Shown here piece by piece: positions 4,946 through 47,112 of a stretch of 64,000 nucleotides of DNA. Numbering within the stretch: the first letter of the stretch is position 1; every line of letters begins with the position of its first letter. Both the position numbers and the translations under genes were made by a program. The notes below the pieces were generated by a model. It saw nothing but the letters and a program-made list of their open reading frames with translations. It was not told where the DNA came from and did not search any database. This DNA comes from Actinomycetota bacterium (GTDB lineage: Bacteria > Actinomycetota > Actinomycetes > Nanopelagicales > Nanopelagicaceae), in assembly GCA_026392935.1 (NCBI GenBank), contig JAPLBE010000016.1:1-64000 (forward strand), in the 5' to 3' direction.

Positions 4946-5101
4946 GTGAAACTTCAGCTAACAAATAAGTTTCTTCACCGCGTCCGGATACACGGTGGGG
5001 AATTTGATTCATCAGCACGTGCGATGAATCGAGCGGGATTGGGAAACCGGTTCCAAGCCGACCTGCGGAAATTCCGTGGATCGACTATCGAAAGGAAACA
5101 A
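4946..5101 (+). ncRNA. Structured 5' leader of the S-layer-like gene (candidate cis-regulatory RNA)
   Basis: The 160 bases before the S-layer-like start hold nested complementarity. A long-range stem pairs CACGG (4991-4995) and AATTT (5001-5005) with AAATT (5069-5073) and CCGTG (5074-5078). Inside are a perfect 8-bp hairpin (5006-5013 with 5023-5030) and a 6-bp hairpin (5039-5044 with 5051-5056). An upstream hairpin uses 4946-4953 and 4968-4978. The SD AAAGGA (5091-5096) follows directly. The multi-branched layout resembles a riboswitch or an mRNA-stabilising leader. Short segments recall the B12-box or c-di-AMP riboswitch cores, but the match is too weak to name a class. The frame is also open from 4946, but no signal peptide would result from that start. 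Confidence 0.5.
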
Positions 5102-6985
5102 ATGTCTACAAAGACAACTTTCAAGCGCGTAGCGCTTGTTGCTGTTGCAGCTTTGGGTCTTGGTGTTCTTGCGACTGTTCCTTCACAGGCAACAGTTCAG
5201 GCAGGTTCACTAACACTTTCAGCGGCTACATCAACGCAACTAACAAATGAAACCTCAACGGCTTCAGCTGCAGTTGCAACAGTAAGCTTCTTGAACACAA
5301 ATGCAGGAGATACAGTTACTGTAACTGCATACCTCATGTCTGCACCAGCAGGCAATACAGCAAGCCCAACAATGCAACTAACTGAAACAGCTTCAGCCAT
5401 TGTTGCTACTACAACTCCAATTGTGACACCTGTCGCAATTCCTGGCCAAAAAGATGGACTGGGACAAGTTGCTAATGTTTCAGGATCAGCAGCAAATTCA
5501 GCTGTTTCTGCAAAGTTCAGAGTCTACATGCAGAGCGCAACCGTTGCTGGAACGTACGTAGTTAAGCTAGTTCCAGCAGTTGCTGGTGGCGGCGGAGTTA
5601 TCGATACAACTGGTGTCACATTGACAATCACAGTATCAACTAACCCAGCTACAGATACAGTTGCATCTACTGCAACATCAATCCTCACAACTGCTGCTGA
5701 CACAACAACAGCTACAGACGCTGTTGTAACAGCAGTAAAGACAGCAAATACACTGGCAGCAGGCCGCGCAGCGAACATTCGCGTTAGTCTTCTAAATGCA
5801 GCTGGTGTAGCAACTGTCGGTGAGTCTTACACAGCTACTATCGCTGGTCCAGGACTTCTTGGTTCAGAAGCGCTTTCTAACGCACTTGCAGGAAATGCAA
5901 TTGGTCGTGCAATCACTGTTAAGGCAGGTCACATTGTGACTGTGTTCCCAGATGGAGCATCTGGTGTATCAACAATCACAATCTCATCCGCTGCAGGTAA
6001 AGTTCTTGCAACAGAGACTGTAACTTTCTACGGTGATGCAACAACAATCACTACCAAGGTACTGAAGTCAGTTGTTTCAGCAGCTAATGACCAGAATGCA
6101 ATTTTGGTTACACTTGCTGATGCAGCAGGAACTAACGTAACTAACGCAACTACTTTCTACGTAACTTCATCAGATACAACAAAGATCGCTGGAACATACC
6201 AGGCACGATCAAGCGTTGGATATGACTTGAAGAACAACGTAGGCGGAGTTGATCTAGGTGCTGGTTACCTAGTCAAGGTCGACGGTGTTGCAGCTGGTTC
6301 AGCTAACATCACAGTTGGAACTAAGTCATCAGCTACAGCTACAACTGGTATCAACGCAGCACCTGTTGCTATCCGTGTTGGTTCAGTAACACCAGCATCT
6401 GTATCTGTAACACTTGATAAGACTTCATACGCACCAGGCGAAAAGGCAACTCTTACAGTTGTCCTCAAGGACAAAGATGGACTTGAGCTCGCTGACGGTA
6501 CATACCTAAACATCTTCGCTACAGGCGGAATTGTTGCTGACTATTCAATGTCTGGTTCACTCTCAGATACAACAACAGCAACTTCAGTAGATGGTTTCTC
6601 TTCACAGAAGAAGGAATTCACTCTCTACATGCCAAACATCGAAGGTGACGTAACATTCACATGGAAGACAGGCTCAACAGCTTCAGGCACAAACGCTGGT
6701 CTAGCAACAGCTAACCAGGCAGTTGCTGGAAAGATTGTCGCTTCTGTTTCATCTGCTGGAACATCAGCAGCTATTGATGCAGCTAACGAGGCAACAGATG
6801 CAGCTAACGCAGCAACTGATGCAGCACTAGCAGCAGCAGATGCAGCAGATGCAGCAACAGCTGCAGCTGAAGATGCATCAGCAGCGGTAGCTACACTTGC
6901 TAAGTCTGTTAACACAGCACTTAACAACCTCAAGAAGCAGATCACAGCGTTGACTGCTCTTGTTAACAAGCTCCTCAAGCGATAA
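5102..6985 (+). CDS. Secreted S-layer-like surface protein with alanine-rich coiled-coil C-terminus
   Basis: I chose the ATG at 5102 because it has an SD (AAAGGA) and begins a clear Sec signal peptide: MSTKTTFKR, a hydrophobic core, then a cleavage site near SQATVQA. The 627-residue product is rich in Thr, Ser, Ala and Val with beta-rich repeats typical of Ig-like or S-layer domains. Residues about 555-605 form an alanine-rich helix with repeated DAANAATDAA-type units, ending in a basic leucine heptad tail (LTALVNKLLKR) that could be a coiled-coil anchor. Codon use is strongly biased towards a few codons, suggesting high expression. No catalytic motif is seen. The structural role is inferred from composition, leader, terminator and abundance signals. 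Confidence 0.8.
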   Translation: MSTKTTFKRVALVAVAALGLGVLATVPSQATVQAGSLTLSAATSTQLTNETSTASAAVATVSFLNTNAGDTVTVTAYLMSAPAGNTASPTMQLTETASAIVATTTPIVTPVAIPGQKDGLGQVANVSGSAANSAVSAKFRVYMQSATVAGTYVVKLVPAVAGGGGVIDTTGVTLTITVSTNPATDTVASTATSILTTAADTTTATDAVVTAVKTANTLAAGRAANIRVSLLNAAGVATVGESYTATIAGPGLLGSEALSNALAGNAIGRAITVKAGHIVTVFPDGASGVSTITISSAAGKVLATETVTFYGDATTITTKVLKSVVSAANDQNAILVTLADAAGTNVTNATTFYVTSSDTTKIAGTYQARSSVGYDLKNNVGGVDLGAGYLVKVDGVAAGSANITVGTKSSATATTGINAAPVAIRVGSVTPASVSVTLDKTSYAPGEKATLTVVLKDKDGLELADGTYLNIFATGGIVADYSMSGSLSDTTTATSVDGFSSQKKEFTLYMPNIEGDVTFTWKTGSTASGTNAGLATANQAVAGKIVASVSSAGTSAAIDAANEATDAANAATDAALAAADAADAATAAAEDASAAVATLAKSVNTALNNLKKQITALTALVNKLLKR

Positions 6986-18479: not shown

Positions 18480-18519
18480 TGCGAATTATTCGCAAGTGGT
18501 GTTTTGCAAGGTGATTATC

Positions 18520-18531: not shown

Positions 18532-18978
18532 ATGTCTGAAGTTCTCGATACCCCAGAAGTACGCAAGATTTATATCGATGCACGTGGCCCACGTTTTGGT
18601 GCAGCCATTACAACAACGGTTCTTGCAATCGCTCTTGTTACTCAAAACGAATTGGTACTTGTCGCTCAAGGAATTGTGTTTCTCATTGGTGCAATCCGCG
18701 GCCCGCAGTTCACTCCATACGGGTTGATCTACAAGAATTTCATTAAGCCACGACTCTCTAAGGAAGCACCGACAGAAGATGTGCGCCCACCAAAGTTTGC
18801 ACAAGCTGTTGGATTTGTATTCGCACTCGTTGGATCAATCGGTGCATTTACTGGAGTGGATGTGCTCTTTACCGTCGCAACTGGTTTTGCTCTCGCAGCA
18901 GCATTCCTAAACTCAGCATTTAATTACTGCTTAGGTTGCGAGATGTACCTATTAATCGTTCGCTTTACATCTAAATAG
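18532..18978 (+). CDS. DUF4395 integral membrane protein
   Basis: 148 residues with four hydrophobic segments and the motifs RGPQFTPYG and, near the C-terminus, FNYCLGCEMY, where two cysteines three residues apart sit at a membrane edge. This pattern is typical of the DUF4395 family, often found next to thioredoxin or rhodanese genes. The CLGC pair could be a redox-active disulphide served by the adjacent thioredoxin; function is otherwise unknown. Confidence 0.82.
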   Translation: MSEVLDTPEVRKIYIDARGPRFGAAITTTVLAIALVTQNELVLVAQGIVFLIGAIRGPQFTPYGLIYKNFIKPRLSKEAPTEDVRPPKFAQAVGFVFALVGSIGAFTGVDVLFTVATGFALAAAFLNSAFNYCLGCEMYLLIVRFTSK

Positions 18979-19022: not shown

Positions 19023-19430
19023 ATGGCCGGAAAGCACGAGCTCCACGAAAAAGGTTTGCGCCTTACACCTCAGCGCGAACTCGTCCTCTCTGCTGTGCGC
19101 GCACTTGGCCACGCAACTCCTGAAGAAGTTGCAGAGAAAGTTCGTCAGACACATCCTGGAATCAACTTATCTACTGTGTATCGCAACCTTGAAACTCTTG
19201 AAAACGTTGGCCTTGTTCAGCACACACACCTTGGCCACGGTGGCGCGACGTATCACGCAGCCGAAGAGCTCACACATTTACACCTCGTCTGCGGAACCTG
19301 CGGATCAGTTGGCGATGCACCAATCGATGTTGCAGCTAATTTCGTTCAGAATCTCTCAGATGACTATGGATTTAAGACTGATGTCACGCACTTTGCCGTC
19401 TATGGCACTTGTGCAGCCTGCGTAAAATAG
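19023..19430 (+). CDS. Fur-family metal-responsive repressor
   Basis: 135 residues. The winged helix covers about residues 1-80 (LTPQRELVLSAV, INLSTVYRNLETLENVGLV). The dimer and metal domain has the histidine cluster ELTHLHLVCGTCG and a second pair CAACVK at the end, so a structural Zn(Cys)4 site can form. Fur, Zur and peroxide sensors share these features, so the metal is not assigned. Its 3' end nearly touches the ygfZ-like gene. Confidence 0.87.
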   Translation: MAGKHELHEKGLRLTPQRELVLSAVRALGHATPEEVAEKVRQTHPGINLSTVYRNLETLENVGLVQHTHLGHGGATYHAAEELTHLHLVCGTCGSVGDAPIDVAANFVQNLSDDYGFKTDVTHFAVYGTCAACVK

Positions 19431-41987: not shown

Positions 41988-43352
41988 ATGACACAGCGAA
42001 ACATCATTTGGTTTCGCCGCGATCTGCGCATTGGCGATCACCCAGCGCTGCTGGAGGCAATAAAAGGTAGTGATGAAGTTGTCCCACTTTTTATTCTTGA
42101 TAAAGCTCAAATTGCTGAAGCCGGTGAAAAGTTACTTGCTTACATGGGGCAATCTCTTCGCGCACTCGATGAATCTCTAGGGAACACACTTCACATCATT
42201 GAAGGCGATCAAGTTGAAGTGCTTAAAGAACTTATCGCACGTTATGACGTTAAAGAAGTTCATATCTCAGATGAATACGAACGCTATGGCGCAGCACGTG
42301 ATGCACGAGTTGAGGCTGCGGGAATTCCACTTATTCGCACCGGTAGTCCCTACGCTGTAAAGCCTGGCCGCGTATTGAAGCCAAGTGATGCGACTCCGTA
42401 TCGCGTCTACACACCTTTTTATCGCGCATGGCGCACACATGGATGGCGCGCACCTGCAGAGACTCCTAAAAATATAAAGGCACCAACGCCACCGGCCGAA
42501 TATCGAAAGTTTCCAGATTTTCCAATGCCGAAAGGCGTTGAGGTAATTGCAGCAGGAGAAGCTGCAGCGCTGCGTCGTTTTAAAGAGTTTACAAAAAAAG
42601 GTTTAGATAGCTACGACGAGAATCGAAATTTTGCAAGCATTGATGGCACTTCTAAGATGAGTACTTATCTGAAGTTTGGCGAGATTCATCCGCGTACTTT
42701 GTTAGCTGGATTAGACGAGAGCAAAGCACACGACACATTCCGTAAAGAGATTGCTTGGCGTGAGTTCTATGCAGATGTGCTTTTTAATAATCCACACACT
42801 GATACTGATTACTACTCGGCCAAGTTCAAAGAGATGCGATATGACAAGCCAGGTAAACAATTTGATGCATGGTGTGCTGGTAAGACGGGCTACCCATTTG
42901 TAGATGCAGCTATGCGCCAACTTGTGCAAGAAGGATGGATGCACAATCGCACGCGCATGGTTGTTGCTTCCTTTCTCGTCAAAGATCTTCACCTCGAATG
43001 GCAACTAGGTGAACGCTTCTTCGCTCAGCATTTAGTTGATTATGACGTGGCATCAAATGCTCACGGTTGGCAGTGGACAGCGGGCACAGGAACAGATGCA
43101 TCCCCTTATTACCGAGTCTTTAACCCCATCGAACAAGGTCGTAGATTTGATGAAAGTGGGGCGTACATTCGCAAATATGTTGCAGAACTGGCCCACTTAA
43201 GTGCTGCGGAGATACACGAACCATGGCTCTTTCTTGACGGATACTCACACGGTTATTCAGAGAGAATTGTTGATCACGCAGTAGAAAGAATTGAATCGTT
43301 AGAACGGCTTAAGGAAATTAAAGCCGATAAACCCGAAAAGCCATCTGCGTAA
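41988..43352 (+). CDS. phr: Deoxyribodipyrimidine photolyase (cryptochrome/photolyase family)
   Basis: 454 residues. The N-terminal antenna domain (NIIWFRRDLRIGDHPALLEA) and the FAD domain with KEIAWREFYADVLF, AAMRQLVQEGWMHNRTRM and DYDVASNAHGWQWTAGTGTD are all present, and the C-terminal RVFNPIEQGRRFD is intact. Repairs UV-made pyrimidine dimers with blue light, suited to a surface-water organism. It starts 12 bases after citA. Confidence 0.94.
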   Translation: MTQRNIIWFRRDLRIGDHPALLEAIKGSDEVVPLFILDKAQIAEAGEKLLAYMGQSLRALDESLGNTLHIIEGDQVEVLKELIARYDVKEVHISDEYERYGAARDARVEAAGIPLIRTGSPYAVKPGRVLKPSDATPYRVYTPFYRAWRTHGWRAPAETPKNIKAPTPPAEYRKFPDFPMPKGVEVIAAGEAAALRRFKEFTKKGLDSYDENRNFASIDGTSKMSTYLKFGEIHPRTLLAGLDESKAHDTFRKEIAWREFYADVLFNNPHTDTDYYSAKFKEMRYDKPGKQFDAWCAGKTGYPFVDAAMRQLVQEGWMHNRTRMVVASFLVKDLHLEWQLGERFFAQHLVDYDVASNAHGWQWTAGTGTDASPYYRVFNPIEQGRRFDESGAYIRKYVAELAHLSAAEIHEPWLFLDGYSHGYSERIVDHAVERIESLERLKEIKADKPEKPSA

Positions 43353-43395
43353 AATTAGTTTTTGCAGAGAATAGTATTTGCAAATTATTAGCAAC

Positions 43396-43424
43396 TTTAC
43401 ATTTGATTTCCCGGACTTTATCTT
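43396..43424 (+). promoter_or_regulatory. Promoter of the cysteine leader peptide and sulfur operon
   Basis: TTTACA (43396-43401), exactly 17 bases, TATCTT (43419-43424), then 6 bases to the ATG at 43431. One of the best promoters in the window; initiation would fall at or next to that ATG, so the small ORF would be leaderless. Confidence 0.65.
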
Positions 43425-43430
43425 TTCCCC

Positions 43431-43490
43431 ATGTTATTTACAAAACGCCGCGTCATTGATTTCTGCCGCGTAAACAACACAAGCTGCTGA
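43431..43490 (+). CDS. Leader peptide with cysteine codons (putative cysteine-responsive attenuator)
   Basis: A 19-residue ORF: MLFTKRRVIDFCRVNNTSC. The basic RR, the acidic residue, CR and a terminal cysteine match the family of short leader peptides that actinobacteria place before sulphur-assimilation genes, where ribosome stalling or passage at cysteine codons sets expression. The ATG is at the predicted transcription start (leaderless), and the next gene in the operon is an exported rhodanese 62 bases downstream, with its own SD (AAAGGA). The stretch between contains a T-rich tract (43512-43519) that might take part in attenuation. Peptide homology is recalled, not searched. Confidence 0.75.
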   Translation: MLFTKRRVIDFCRVNNTSC

Positions 43491-43552
43491 TCTTTACTGC
43501 CTCCGACTTAGTTTTTTAATTTCACTTCCAACTACTCATTCAAAGGATAAAA

Positions 43553-44503
43553 ATGTTAATTTCAAGAAAAATAATCGTAGGAACAGCAGTTGCTGGTCTC
43601 CTTGCAACAACTGGAGTTTTCCCCGCGGAAGCTCGACCAAAGAATCAAGCACGCGCAGTTGCTCAACCAACATGGCTTGAGCAGAACATCGATAATCCAA
43701 ATGTTCGCATCATTGAAGTAAGCACCGAACCAGGTGTGTACGAGCGCGGACACATTAAGAATTCAGTGAATTTTGTCTGGCATACAGATCTCGTCGACAC
43801 TGTAAATCGCGACATCATCAGCCAAGAGAATTTCACAGCACTTGCTCGCAAAGCTGGAATCAATGAAAACACAACAGTGGTTCTGTATGGTGATAAAAAC
43901 AACTGGTTTGCAGCATGGGGTGCGTGGATCTTTAACGTGTACGGACAGAAAGATGTTCGAGTACTTGATGGCGGGCGCGTGAAGTGGGAGAAAGATGGAC
44001 GCGCTCTCACAACGGCTGTACCGACATTTAAAGCTGGAAATTTCTCAGCAAATAACGCAGATAAGAATCTTCGCGCTGGCTTGATCAAGGATGTTCTACC
44101 TGCTGCAAAGAAGACCAAGACTGCAACACTCATTGATATTCGTTCAGCGGATGAGTACAGCGGAAAGATCTTTGCACCTGCAGGTTTCCAAGAGACAGCA
44201 GTTCGCGCAGGACATATCCCTGGTGCAATTAACGTACCTTGGGGTCAGAATGTAAATGCTGATGGAACATTTAAAACAGTTGAAGAACTGAAGAAGTTGT
44301 ATGCCGATAAGGGTGTAACTGGTTCAGATCAGATTATTACTTACTGCCGTATCGGTGAGCGTTCTTCACTTACTTGGTTCGTGCTCAGCGAAATTCTTGG
44401 CTTCCAAAAGGTAAAAAATTATGACGGTTCATGGACAGAATATGGAAACTCTATCGGTTCACCAATTAACAACCCTTCCAAAACAATTTGGGGAGCTGCG
44501 TAA
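43553..44503 (+). CDS. Exported rhodanese (thiosulfate/mercaptopyruvate sulfurtransferase)
   Basis: 316 residues. A signal peptide (MLISRKIIVGTAVAGLLATTGVF, cleavage near EAR) precedes two rhodanese domains. The active-site loop of the second domain is YCRIGERSS (Cys about residue 265), and the CRxGxR form is more like thiosulfate-type enzymes. The first domain has GDKNNWFAAWGAW and is inactive, as usual. Works at the outside of the cell, most likely with the thiosulfate transporter encoded next (they overlap by 16 bases). Confidence 0.9.
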   Translation: MLISRKIIVGTAVAGLLATTGVFPAEARPKNQARAVAQPTWLEQNIDNPNVRIIEVSTEPGVYERGHIKNSVNFVWHTDLVDTVNRDIISQENFTALARKAGINENTTVVLYGDKNNWFAAWGAWIFNVYGQKDVRVLDGGRVKWEKDGRALTTAVPTFKAGNFSANNADKNLRAGLIKDVLPAAKKTKTATLIDIRSADEYSGKIFAPAGFQETAVRAGHIPGAINVPWGQNVNADGTFKTVEELKKLYADKGVTGSDQIITYCRIGERSSLTWFVLSEILGFQKVKNYDGSWTEYGNSIGSPINNPSKTIWGAA

Positions 44504-45747
44504 TTAACAACTCAGAGCAGTCACAACAGGGTCTCGGTACTTCCGAGGCCCTGTTGCCTGCTTGGAACAAAACGCAGAAGATTCGTACCGCAATCTCTCT
44601 CGTTATTGTCACTGCACTTTTTGTCTTAGCTTTCATTCTCTCTTCCGGCACAAATGCCGGCACTGCACCCGTTTCACTTCTCTTGGGTGCAGGACTTGGA
44701 TTATTGCTGGAGCGAGGACGTTTCTGCTTCTTCTGTATTTTCAGAGATGGTATTGAAGATAAAAACACAACACCTTTTCTTTCAGTCTTAACTGCCATCG
44801 CCACCGGTTCAATTGGCTACGCAGTTATTTTCGGACAATTTTTACCTGACACCACATCAGATCGACTTCCACCTGCGGCGCATATTGGCCCAGTTAGTTG
44901 GGTACTTGCACTAAGTGCATTTGCTTTTGGCATAGGAATGGCACTCTCAGGTGCATGCATTAGTGGACATTTATACAGATTAGGTCAGGGATACTTGCGC
45001 GCAATTCCTGCACTGATCGGAACACTCATCGGATTCGTTCTCGCATTTCTTACCTGGAATTGGTTTTACTTACACGCAATTGCCGATGCGCCAAAAATCT
45101 GGTTACCGCATTATGTGGGATATTCGGGATCATTGCTGATTACCTTTGCTGCGTTATTGGCCATAGCAGTATTTGCTATCCGTTTTGGAAAGAATTCTGA
45201 GCCAGTTACATCAGTACTCACTGGCAAGATTTCATTGGTCAACACCTTTAAGCGCTTGCTTGTCGAACGCTGGAGCCCGCTGATTACAGGTGGGTTAGTA
45301 GGAATTATTGGCATGATTGCTTATCTTCGGGTTGAACCACTCGGTGTTACTCGTCAATTGAGCACTCAAGCACGGACGCTAATGTCAGAGAACAAAATTG
45401 GACCTGAATCAATTTTAGGGTTGGATCGTTTGGCTGGCTGTGTTGCAGTTGTTTCAGAGACAATTACAAATAATGGTTGGTTGATCCTTGGGCTCGTTAC
45501 TGCATCATTTGCTGCAGCTTTTGCAGGAGGCCGATTCAAATTCACCCCGCTGACGATTAAGAATTCCTCAACAGCTCTTGTCGGTGGAGTTCTTCTTGGA
45601 TGGGGCTCGATGACATCACTGGGTTGCACTATTGGTGTTTTGCTTTCAGGAACCCAAGCATTTGCACTCTCTGGGTGGGTATTTTTCCTCTTTGTATTCC
45701 TTGGCAGCTGGGTAGGAATCAAGGCGAAGCTACATAAGTTTGGTTGA
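44488..45747 (+). CDS. YeeE/YedE (TsuA-like) thiosulfate uptake transporter
   Basis: 419 residues beginning at TTG 44488, which overlaps the end of the rhodanese gene by 16 bases; a later start is possible since the first 30 residues are not hydrophobic. About ten membrane segments. Three conserved cysteine motifs fit thiosulfate-transport YeeE proteins: RGRFCFFCIFRDG, GACISGHLYRLGQG and MTSLGCTIGVLLSG. Known relatives import thiosulfate or sulfur through cysteine relays. Overlaps the convergent GGDEF gene end by 18 bases. Confidence 0.85.
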   Translation: MGSCVINNSEQSQQGLGTSEALLPAWNKTQKIRTAISLVIVTALFVLAFILSSGTNAGTAPVSLLLGAGLGLLLERGRFCFFCIFRDGIEDKNTTPFLSVLTAIATGSIGYAVIFGQFLPDTTSDRLPPAAHIGPVSWVLALSAFAFGIGMALSGACISGHLYRLGQGYLRAIPALIGTLIGFVLAFLTWNWFYLHAIADAPKIWLPHYVGYSGSLLITFAALLAIAVFAIRFGKNSEPVTSVLTGKISLVNTFKRLLVERWSPLITGGLVGIIGMIAYLRVEPLGVTRQLSTQARTLMSENKIGPESILGLDRLAGCVAVVSETITNNGWLILGLVTASFAAAFAGGRFKFTPLTIKNSSTALVGGVLLGWGSMTSLGCTIGVLLSGTQAFALSGWVFFLFVFLGSWVGIKAKLHKFG

Positions 45748-47112
45748 TGCGGAAGTCACAACTCCTTCACCATTTCTTTTTGCCTCATACATCGCAGCAT
45801 CTGCACGTTCTAGCAAGTTAGCTTCACCATTGTTATGTGCGTGTCCAATACTCACTCCAATTGTGATTGGCACACCGCGAATCATGAATGGATAGGTAAG
45901 AGTTGCTTGCAGCGCATATGCTGCTTCAAGCGTCTGTTCGTAGTTTCCATTAATCAGGACACCGAATTCATCTCCGCCGAGTCGCGCTAAGACCGAACCA
46001 GTTGGAAGTGAGCGGCTGAATCTTTGCGACACTTGCCGCAAAATTTGATCTCCTATTTCATGACCGTAGTTGTCATTAACAGGTTTGAATTTATTGAGAT
46101 CAAGTAAGAGTAGGGCGCCTTCAGTCTTTGAAAATGTGGCAAGTTCTGCAACCAATCTTCTTCTATTGGGTAGCCCGGTAAGTTCATCAGTACGAGCTAA
46201 AACCTTTTCTTCACCCAAAGTTTTTGCTTGCCTAATCACAATTGTCATACGTATAAATGCCAGGAAGAGGGTTGCAATTGTGGGAATCAAAATGTATATC
46301 GAGAAAATTCCAGGTTTAAGAGCGCTCAGTGCAAGCAAAGTAGGGCTGATAAATATTGAGAGTGCGATAAAGACCGGATGAATCGAAATCTCAGTGTCAC
46401 TTTTGTTCTGTGCGCTGGAAAATGTGAGCGCGATGGCGACGATTCCAAGCAACCACCCATCATCAATGAGCTGACCAAAGATGTATTTGTTGTTGACAGT
46501 AAGCCATAGGTAGAGCAGATCGAAGGCCCCAAAGATGGTAATTCCCAGAAATAGAATTAGTACGCGGCTTTGAACTTTATGCGTGACCAGCGATATCAGA
46601 GCGATTGTGACCAAGATGAGATCAAAGATGGGAAATAACAGAGCAAAGAATTGATCTTTCACGCTGACAATGGAGTCAGGAAAAACCCGCGACAAAAACA
46701 GTGCAGTTGCTATCGCTGAAATTCCAAGTGCAAAGATAAATGCATCGAGTAGTTCAAGCGGATTTAATTTCCGCCCTCTAGTGAGCGCTCTCGGAATTGC
46801 TGCGAGAAGTAGTGGATAGAAGATTGCATAGCTAAGTTGAGCGATGAAAGCACTCTCTAGTGGGAGCTCCCGAAAGTCACTAATGCTGTTTATCAAGGAT
46901 CCAAATCCCCAAAATCCAATTGCTAGAGATGCTGTGGCAATTGCGACGGGATCATTACTTAAGGGAGCTTGTGTGATCGCAATAATTGCGGCAATCCAAA
47001 TAGCGTTGTAGAGAACGAGATCTAGGAGAAATGATTCATGCGTGTTAAGCAGCTTAATTGATACATGAATGAGCAAAAGTGAGATTGGTAGAAATCTGAA
47101 AAAGCGATACAC
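45730..47112 (-). CDS. Membrane GGDEF-domain diguanylate cyclase
   Basis: 460 residues. About nine hydrophobic segments (residues 5-295) form an N-terminal sensor region, then a GGDEF domain (about 300-457): DELTGLPNRRRLV, NDNYGHEIGDQIL and the active-site LGGDEFGVLI. The conserved RxxD inhibitory site is not obvious. No EAL domain, so it should make c-di-GMP. I do not know the sensed signal. Confidence 0.88.
   Translation of the reverse strand: MYRFFRFLPISLLLIHVSIKLLNTHESFLLDLVLYNAIWIAAIIAITQAPLSNDPVAIATASLAIGFWGFGSLINSISDFRELPLESAFIAQLSYAIFYPLLLAAIPRALTRGRKLNPLELLDAFIFALGISAIATALFLSRVFPDSIVSVKDQFFALLFPIFDLILVTIALISLVTHKVQSRVLILFLGITIFGAFDLLYLWLTVNNKYIFGQLIDDGWLLGIVAIALTFSSAQNKSDTEISIHPVFIALSIFISPTLLALSALKPGIFSIYILIPTIATLFLAFIRMTIVIRQAKTLGEEKVLARTDELTGLPNRRRLVAELATFSKTEGALLLLDLNKFKPVNDNYGHEIGDQILRQVSQRFSRSLPTGSVLARLGGDEFGVLINGNYEQTLEAAYALQATLTYPFMIRGVPITIGVSIGHAHNNGEANLLERADAAMYEAKRNGEGVVTSASTKLM

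Follow-up and report, generated by a model that had tools for sequence, protein, structure and literature searches.

Genomic context of the leader peptide

We examined a 64,000-nucleotide stretch of an Actinomycetota bacterium of the family Nanopelagicaceae (assembly GCA_026392935.1, contig JAPLBE010000016.1, positions 1 to 64,000; hereafter the window), in which a 19-codon open reading frame (ORF) precedes genes for a rhodanese and a YeeE/YedE-type transporter (Table 1). Comparative sequence evidence identifies this ORF as a real, translated, Cys-ending leader peptide of actinobacterial type. The leader is of a kind known from mycobacteria and is found here in a new setting, a rhodanese-transporter operon. 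The host assembly is 1.35 Mb in size and 96% complete, and its named relatives include 'Candidatus Planktophila', which belongs to the acI lineage.

An earlier note on this DNA had described the hexamer TTTACA, 17 bases, the hexamer TATCTT and then an ATG opening a 19-codon ORF, and each of these elements was read where the note had placed it. The bases TTCCCC lie between the -10 hexamer and the ATG, and transcription is predicted to start at 43431. By itself the promoter is at chance level, with one found by the scan versus 0.7 ± 0.7 in shuffled sequences. A -10-like hexamer of equal quality stands 5 to 9 nucleotides (nt) before 0.6% of the 2153 ATGs on both strands of the window. The decisive evidence for the leader ORF is comparative, rather than the promoter scan. 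No known RNA family was found at 43300-43700.

Table 1. Positions in the window of the leader operon and of the DUF4395 locus
Feature	Position	Strand	Remarks
Dyad TGCAAATTATTAGCA, 15 bp, putative Nur/Fur-family operator	43379..43393	.	Ends 2 bp before the -35 hexamer
-35 hexamer TTTACA	43396..43401	+	Read directly; TTTAC(A/T) recurs here in many relatives
-10 hexamer TATCTT	43419..43424	+	17-bp spacing to the -35 hexamer; 6 nt 5' of the leader ATG
Leader peptide ORF MLFTKRRVIDFCRVNNTSC, 19 codons, stop TGA	43431..43490	+	Its two Cys residues are at positions 12 and 19
Spacer, 62 nt, G-poor, C-over-G	43491..43552	+	Holds the rhodanese Shine-Dalgarno sequence AAAGGA, 43542-43547
Two-domain thiosulfate sulfurtransferase (rhodanese)	43553..44503	+	N-terminal signal-like segment by eye; active-site loop CRIGERSS
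YeeE/YedE (TsuA-type, Sulf_transp) transporter	44503..45747	+	Probable AUU start 44503-44505 overlapping the rhodanese stop; Shine-Dalgarno-like GGGGAG 44490-44495
Exact dyad TGCGAATTATTCGCA	18480..18494	.	Upstream of the DUF4395/Nur-like pair; sole exact match in the 1.35-Mb assembly
DUF4395 protein	18532..18978	+	PF14340, E 2.9e-43
Fur-family regulator	19023..19430	+	Closest solved structure 3EYY

Conservation of the leader and selection on its peptide

The leader ORF lies 5' of the orthologous rhodanese gene in 24 of 24 same-genus loci that have upstream sequence, the window counted; a 25th locus (L025) sits at a contig end with no upstream sequence and was left out. A contig scan, which shares genomes with the same-genus set, found the ORF in all 28 loci with a rhodanese identity of at least 69% and in none of 52 loci at or below 67% identity, of which two have less than 350 nt upstream. 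The ORF is also present in L026, a locus of the same genus with a 58% identical rhodanese. Elsewhere in the 734 kb of scanned loci, the leader pattern occurs once. In a profile search for further leaders in the window genome, only the window leader was clear (E 5e-13); two other matches, with E above 1, were treated as noise. Alignment of the ORF across relatives had been set beforehand as a test, with lack of conservation as the refuting outcome, and conservation is what was found.

The core of the leader, KRR-x-[IV]-D...R...C, is under selection at the peptide level. The ratio of nonsynonymous to synonymous differences (pN/pS) over 15 core codons was 0.235 in frame (0.149 in the window clade) and 1.53 and 1.59 in the two alternative frames; this sample comprised 29 distinct sequences out of 34 loci, among which at least one genome occurs twice (L010 and L038). 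The residues K, R, R, D, R, and the last C were invariant in 31 of 31 distinct cores, a set collected by patterns that demanded part of the core (for the same-genus loci only R or K, then R, one or two residues, and D). The middle Cys was replaced by G or A in 10 of the 31.

Initiation mode changes while the peptide is kept

Among the 34 aligned loci, 14 were called leaderless (a -10 hexamer ending 6 to 7 nt before the start and a Shine-Dalgarno [SD] match of at most 3 nt) and 20 SD-led (an SD match of at least 4 nt without a good hexamer nearby), the latter including L053 of 'Ca. Planktophila versatilis'. One of the 14, L026, was called by eye and not by score, from an ATG five codons upstream that follows TAACTT at 6 nt. 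The earlier note had described the leader as leaderless, which holds for the layout in the window and fails as a defining trait, given the SD-led majority of the aligned loci. Forty more loci were sampled, of which 37 have a canonical leader (see below), and in all 37 such a hexamer stands 6 to 7 nt before a start that was picked to favor the leaderless reading; three of them also show a 4-nt SD match. The background rate of such hexamers is 3 to 6% of starts in the genus and 1 to 1.5% in other families.

On the transporter tree, the leaderless window and its sister L042 (pair support, 100/100) are nested within SD-led relatives (with L006-L008, 95/93). Between TATCTTTTCCC and the ATG the window is 28 nt shorter than L006, the SD included, and the tree points to a deletion in the window lineage. 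The L042 rhodanese (5001-5933) is 79% identical to that of the window, whereas the transporter is 97% and the photolyase 98% identical. Grouping of the two rhodaneses was rejected (approximately unbiased test, p-AU 1e-4), and the rhodanese gene has probably been replaced, as an allelic exchange, in either the window or L042. Because of this probable replacement, changes of initiation mode were read from the transporter tree (3 changes) as well as from the rhodanese tree (4 changes). Read from these sequences, the peptide was kept while its way of starting changed, and leaderlessness is not conserved.

Resemblance to mycobacterial leaders and the canonical locus

The window ORF with two upstream codons matched the NCBIfam model Ms5788A (NF042933) at E 6.6e-5. 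Under the same model, two canonical leaders of the genus scored 24.4 and 24.9 bits and three from other families 48.5 (which passes the curated cut-off), 44.4, and 38.5 bits. Together with the conservation and coding selection described above, this match bears out the Cys-ending leader peptide of the earlier note. A short basic motif is also shared with the putative leader peptide domain cis_reg_atten (NF042934), at E 0.029 and 14 bits, below the cut-off of 27.

At E ≤0.05, a profile built from these leaders matched 117 of 199 relatives. Of 20 matched loci that were read, 19 have a DUF4395-like gene, a CysA-type rhodanese, or both downstream, and the 20th ends at a contig edge. The canonical locus of the genus has the order leader, DUF4395 gene, in some cases a CysA-type rhodanese and a DUF1416-like gene, then a Fur-family gene and a YgfZ-like gene, the labels DUF1416 and YgfZ being presumptive. 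At the canonical locus of the window genome (18480-19430), the DUF4395 and Fur genes are kept, the leader is undetected, and the CysA-type rhodanese is gone. There the DUF4395 gene itself has a leaderless layout: TAATCT precedes its ATG by 6 nt, and this ATG sits at the place expected for the leader ATG.

Mycobacterial leaders contain runs of Cys codons. The Ms5788A leaders of mycobacteria resemble the window leader in their KRR-x-[IV]-D core, terminal Cys, leaderless layout, and position ahead of a CysA-type rhodanese gene. The window leader differs in that it precedes a rhodanese-YeeE pair; further, it has two single Cys codons in place of a run, its close relatives are SD-led, and no fold over the start site is predicted in the window. 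PMC4633059 calls a small cysteine-rich ORF before cysA2 in mycobacteria a candidate, which fits the mycobacterial precedent invoked in the earlier note.

A probable Nur-like operator beside the promoter

The dyad next to the -35 hexamer has 1 mismatch to TGCRAATNATTYGCA, and a dyad with at most 2 mismatches is present in 28 of the 34 leader regions, window included. It fits the Nur box tTGCaa-N5-ttGCAA given in PMC3919588, which also describes nickel-uptake genes as repressed by Nur. In the whole genome there is one exact match (at 18480) and two matches with 1 mismatch, at the leader promoter (43379) and within a coding ORF. Sites with up to 2 mismatches number 42, versus 11 for the reversed pattern. 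All 42 were read: 36 fall inside ORFs of 60 to 70 amino acids or more, and a wide dyad regulon was discarded on this ground. The six others are 18480, 43379, a site at a CbiM gene, C17:143505, C18:39161, and C19:89032. A looser pattern (134 matches versus 61 reversed), which was the first to show the CbiM site, was not strong enough for use.

This CbiM site is the perfect dyad TGCAAACGGTTTGCA (L173 1502-1516; G000:C18:62178-62192), which lies upstream of a gene for a CbiM-type metal transporter (PF01891, E 1.4e-58), its right end 16 nt from the ATG. It is likely a Nur target, as expected of a repressor of nickel uptake. The C19:89032 site (G000:C19:89032-89046; L237), with the sequence TGAAAATCATTTTCA, lies about 0.8 kb from the second Fur-family gene of the genome and is perhaps another box of the Fur-family type.

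The closest solved structure to the window Fur protein is 3EYY (E 3.8e-45; next, 1.4e-15), which we take to be the Nur of Streptomyces coelicolor. Histidines 33, 70, 72, and 126 of 3EYY align with His in the window protein and His 86 with Leu. The genome also encodes a nickel superoxide dismutase (SOD). The resemblance to Streptomyces Nur therefore extends over the protein, the box, and the dyad 5' of the CbiM gene; the system differs in that its likely targets include a sulfur operon along with the locus encoding the regulator, with nickel specificity being a prediction. The dyad next to the -35 hexamer is probably the binding site of a Nur-like repressor and would form a second, transcriptional gate.

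All 19 canonical leader loci sampled in the genus carry a dyad (≤3 mismatches) 37 to 38 nt ahead of the start, as the leader in the window does (37 nt). Of 18 leader loci in other families, 16 lack it (6 to 7 mismatches) and two have it at 71 nt. Three genus loci that lack a canonical leader, and the window, have the dyad in the same arrangement directly ahead of the DUF4395 gene. Because the same dyad-promoter-leader layout occurs at the DUF4395 locus, capture of a cassette by the rhodanese-transporter pair is the simplest reading, and the control region was probably copied from the canonical DUF4395 (and CysA-type rhodanese) locus. The earlier note had pictured a self-contained module, a view that the Nur-box-like dyad and the Nur-like gene do not favor, nor does the missing partner family described next.

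Rhodanese, transporter, and sulfur metabolism

The best solved relatives of the rhodanese are thiosulfate sulfurtransferases by name, and its active-site loop is kept; the protein is probably exported, judging by its signal-like segment. The transporter aligns with the TsuA cysteines C22, C91, and C293 and has all three, and because these are kept it likely imports sulfane sulfur or thiosulfate. The rhodanese and thiosulfate transporter proposed in the earlier note are in line with these features. The curated TsuA scores were missed (72.8 of 645 bits for NF041049; 74.6 of 400 bits for NF052577). In Escherichia coli, thiosulfate uptake by TsuA needs TsuB, according to PMC11073785. The window transporter shares the Sulf_transp family and the three cysteines with TsuA/YeeE, which that source pairs with TsuB/YeeD, but it is paired instead with the probably exported rhodanese. 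A search of the genome (96% complete), in which 11 of 14 control families were detected, found no member of the TusA/TsuB family (PF01206). The rhodanese perhaps takes the role of the missing TsuB-type partner. The rhodanese-YeeE pair is widespread in Chloroflexota, Acidovorax, and others (L060-L111), where 51 of 52 loci have the transporter close to the rhodanese and the leader is absent; a TsuB-independent sulfur-uptake unit is possible.

The CysH/CysD family (PF01507) was not found in the genome, with 14 of 14 control families detected, and the cell should therefore need reduced sulfur. A need of acI bacteria for reduced sulfur has been published (PMC5301498), and the reduced-sulfur dependence suggested in the earlier note agrees with both.

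The transporter gene probably starts at a conserved AUU that overlaps the rhodanese stop. At the rhodanese-transporter junction (L002-L059), AUU or AUC overlaps the stop (e.g., UAAUU) in 49 of 51 loci, a set that holds many genomes twice; the two exceptions have a UUG overlapping UGA. No in-frame AUG, GUG, or UUG occurs between -20 and +60 at 19 of the 51 junctions, and the UUG at 44488 in the window is not conserved. We favor the AUU start because the AUU/AUC is conserved and because the more distant homologues L062 and L064 carry an AUG in exactly this position. A -1 frameshift fusing rhodanese and transporter was set aside because the transporter frame of L016, L017, and L022 opens only 1 to 4 nt before the rhodanese stop. 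Conserved noncanonical start codons are described for sigR (GTC) and infC (ATT/ATC) in PMC5472188; here, the AUU/AUC additionally overlaps the stop of the upstream operon partner. At its 3' end the transporter gene is overlapped by a gene on the opposite strand (45730-47112) for a GGDEF-type protein (domain recognized by eye), which closes the operon.

Proposed mechanism and alternatives

We consider it probable, with some reserve, that a cysteine-responsive translated leader related to Ms5788A controls the rhodanese-transporter operon, with a probable Nur gate and a probably copied control region. This account starts from the observed conservation, coding selection, layout, operator match, and gene content, and the regulatory steps are predicted from them. 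A shortage of charged cysteine tRNA would make a ribosome pause at the leader Cys codons, mainly at the invariant last one next to the stop; family resemblance and this unvaried last Cys make cysteine shortage the best-supported trigger. The pause would raise expression of the rhodanese and the YeeE-type transporter, which may import sulfane sulfur or thiosulfate and so supply a cell presumably unable to reduce sulfate. A Nur-like repressor at the dyad would add a second gate on transcription. Dyad, promoter, and leader would together have been copied onto a rhodanese-transporter pair that is leader-free in other phyla.

For the read-out, we suggest that the paused ribosome would shield the G-poor spacer from Rho-dependent termination. 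No intrinsic terminator was found in the spacer, and among 24 loci spacers diverge in sequence and in length (62 to 97 nt). C minus G was +0.16 across the 34 spacers, which are related to one another, and +0.02 across 19 upstream regions used as controls, which were taken from mechanical ORFs. This G-poor composition suits Rho-dependent termination and might be a lead to it.

Several observations weigh against the cysteine-responsive account. The nonindependent spacers and mechanical controls just described blur the composition signal, and YC dinucleotides are not enriched in the spacers (p 0.82). The Ms5788A score of the window leader is 22.5 bits versus a curated cut-off of 45. The window leader has two Cys codons and no Cys run, and 13 of the 17 canonical leaders listed (L144-L162) have a single Cys codon. 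Its RNA folds less than shuffled sequences (z +2.33), and a simulated pause leaves accessibility of the start site unchanged (0.42 to 0.44). In six of the 34 leader regions the dyad has at least 3 mismatches and the leader is kept, and three of the six dyad sites outside ORFs are at other genes. Finally, the TusA/TsuB family was not found.

One alternative is that the nascent chain is the sensor, with KRR-x-I-D-x-x-R...C in the exit tunnel setting the pause and the number of Cys codons being secondary. The invariance of six residues despite a middle Cys that may be G or A, the single Cys of most canonical leaders, and the survival of the peptide through changes of initiation mode all speak for it. 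Yet the last Cys is equally invariant, the search patterns demanded part of the core, and conservation of basic residues may have other causes; the study of the mycobacterial member, by Canestrari in 2020, is reportedly titled as polycysteine attenuation. We regard a nascent-chain sensor as unlikely. Another alternative is sequestration of the start site. In the mycobacterial relative, ribosome pausing reportedly opens an mRNA fold over an otherwise masked start site, and the same may be asked of the rhodanese start. Accessibility of the SD rose by at least 0.2 upon a simulated pause in 5 of 32 loci (L004, L006, L015, L016, and L026), and the mean rose from 0.24 to 0.32; this count omits L042 and L057, which have no SD at the assigned start. 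Against this stand the unchanged window, a fall from 0.32 to 0.03 in L012, a mean minimum free energy z of -0.15 over the 32 loci, and the variable spacers, which make sequestration decidedly unlikely. The structural mechanism of the mycobacterial leader thus finds no support from folding in the window, and because folding lends none to a hidden rhodanese start, we favor protection of the spacer from Rho over unfolding of the start site.

The Nur-like repressor could also be the main control, with the leader merely delivering ribosomes for coupling and sensing no cysteine. The position of the dyad is fixed relative to the leaderless start at both genus loci, and the genome has the Nur-like gene, the nickel SOD, and the dyad before the CbiM gene. 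A coupling ORF, however, would not require a conserved Cys and KRR, and the six regions that keep the leader beside a poor dyad also argue against this view, which we hold to be very unlikely. We give almost no weight to a reading frame present by chance across some conserved element of DNA or RNA: promoter and operator sequence do lie in the same region, but the other frames have a pN/pS of about 1.5, and start contexts and lengths differ while the core stays the same.

Having weighed these alternatives, we prefer the cysteine-responsive leader with its probable Nur gate. A bolder combination would make the leader a portable nascent-peptide sensor within a Nur operator-promoter-leader cassette copied from the DUF4395-cysA2 locus, with at least three initiation changes, gating by both nickel and cysteine, and a transporter throttled by its AUU start; taken as a whole, we find this rather unlikely.

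Significance

Among the matches listed, judged by title and the start of the abstract, we found no literature on the control of this operon; subscription papers lie mostly outside that search. We conclude that the leader is ordinary in kind and new in setting, that the switch of initiation mode is unexpected, and that the Nur gate and the AUU-started transporter are probable. The finding extends the mycobacterial kind of cysteine leader to a new operon, in which the start of the leader switches between leaderless and SD-led while the peptide is kept, and for which a gate by a metal regulator is also likely. If the reading as a sensor cassette is true, the two modes in close relatives would amount to a natural experiment on attenuators on leaderless mRNA. 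For the organism, these results give a concrete account of how a dominant lake bacterium incapable of using sulfate may sense its sulfur supply.

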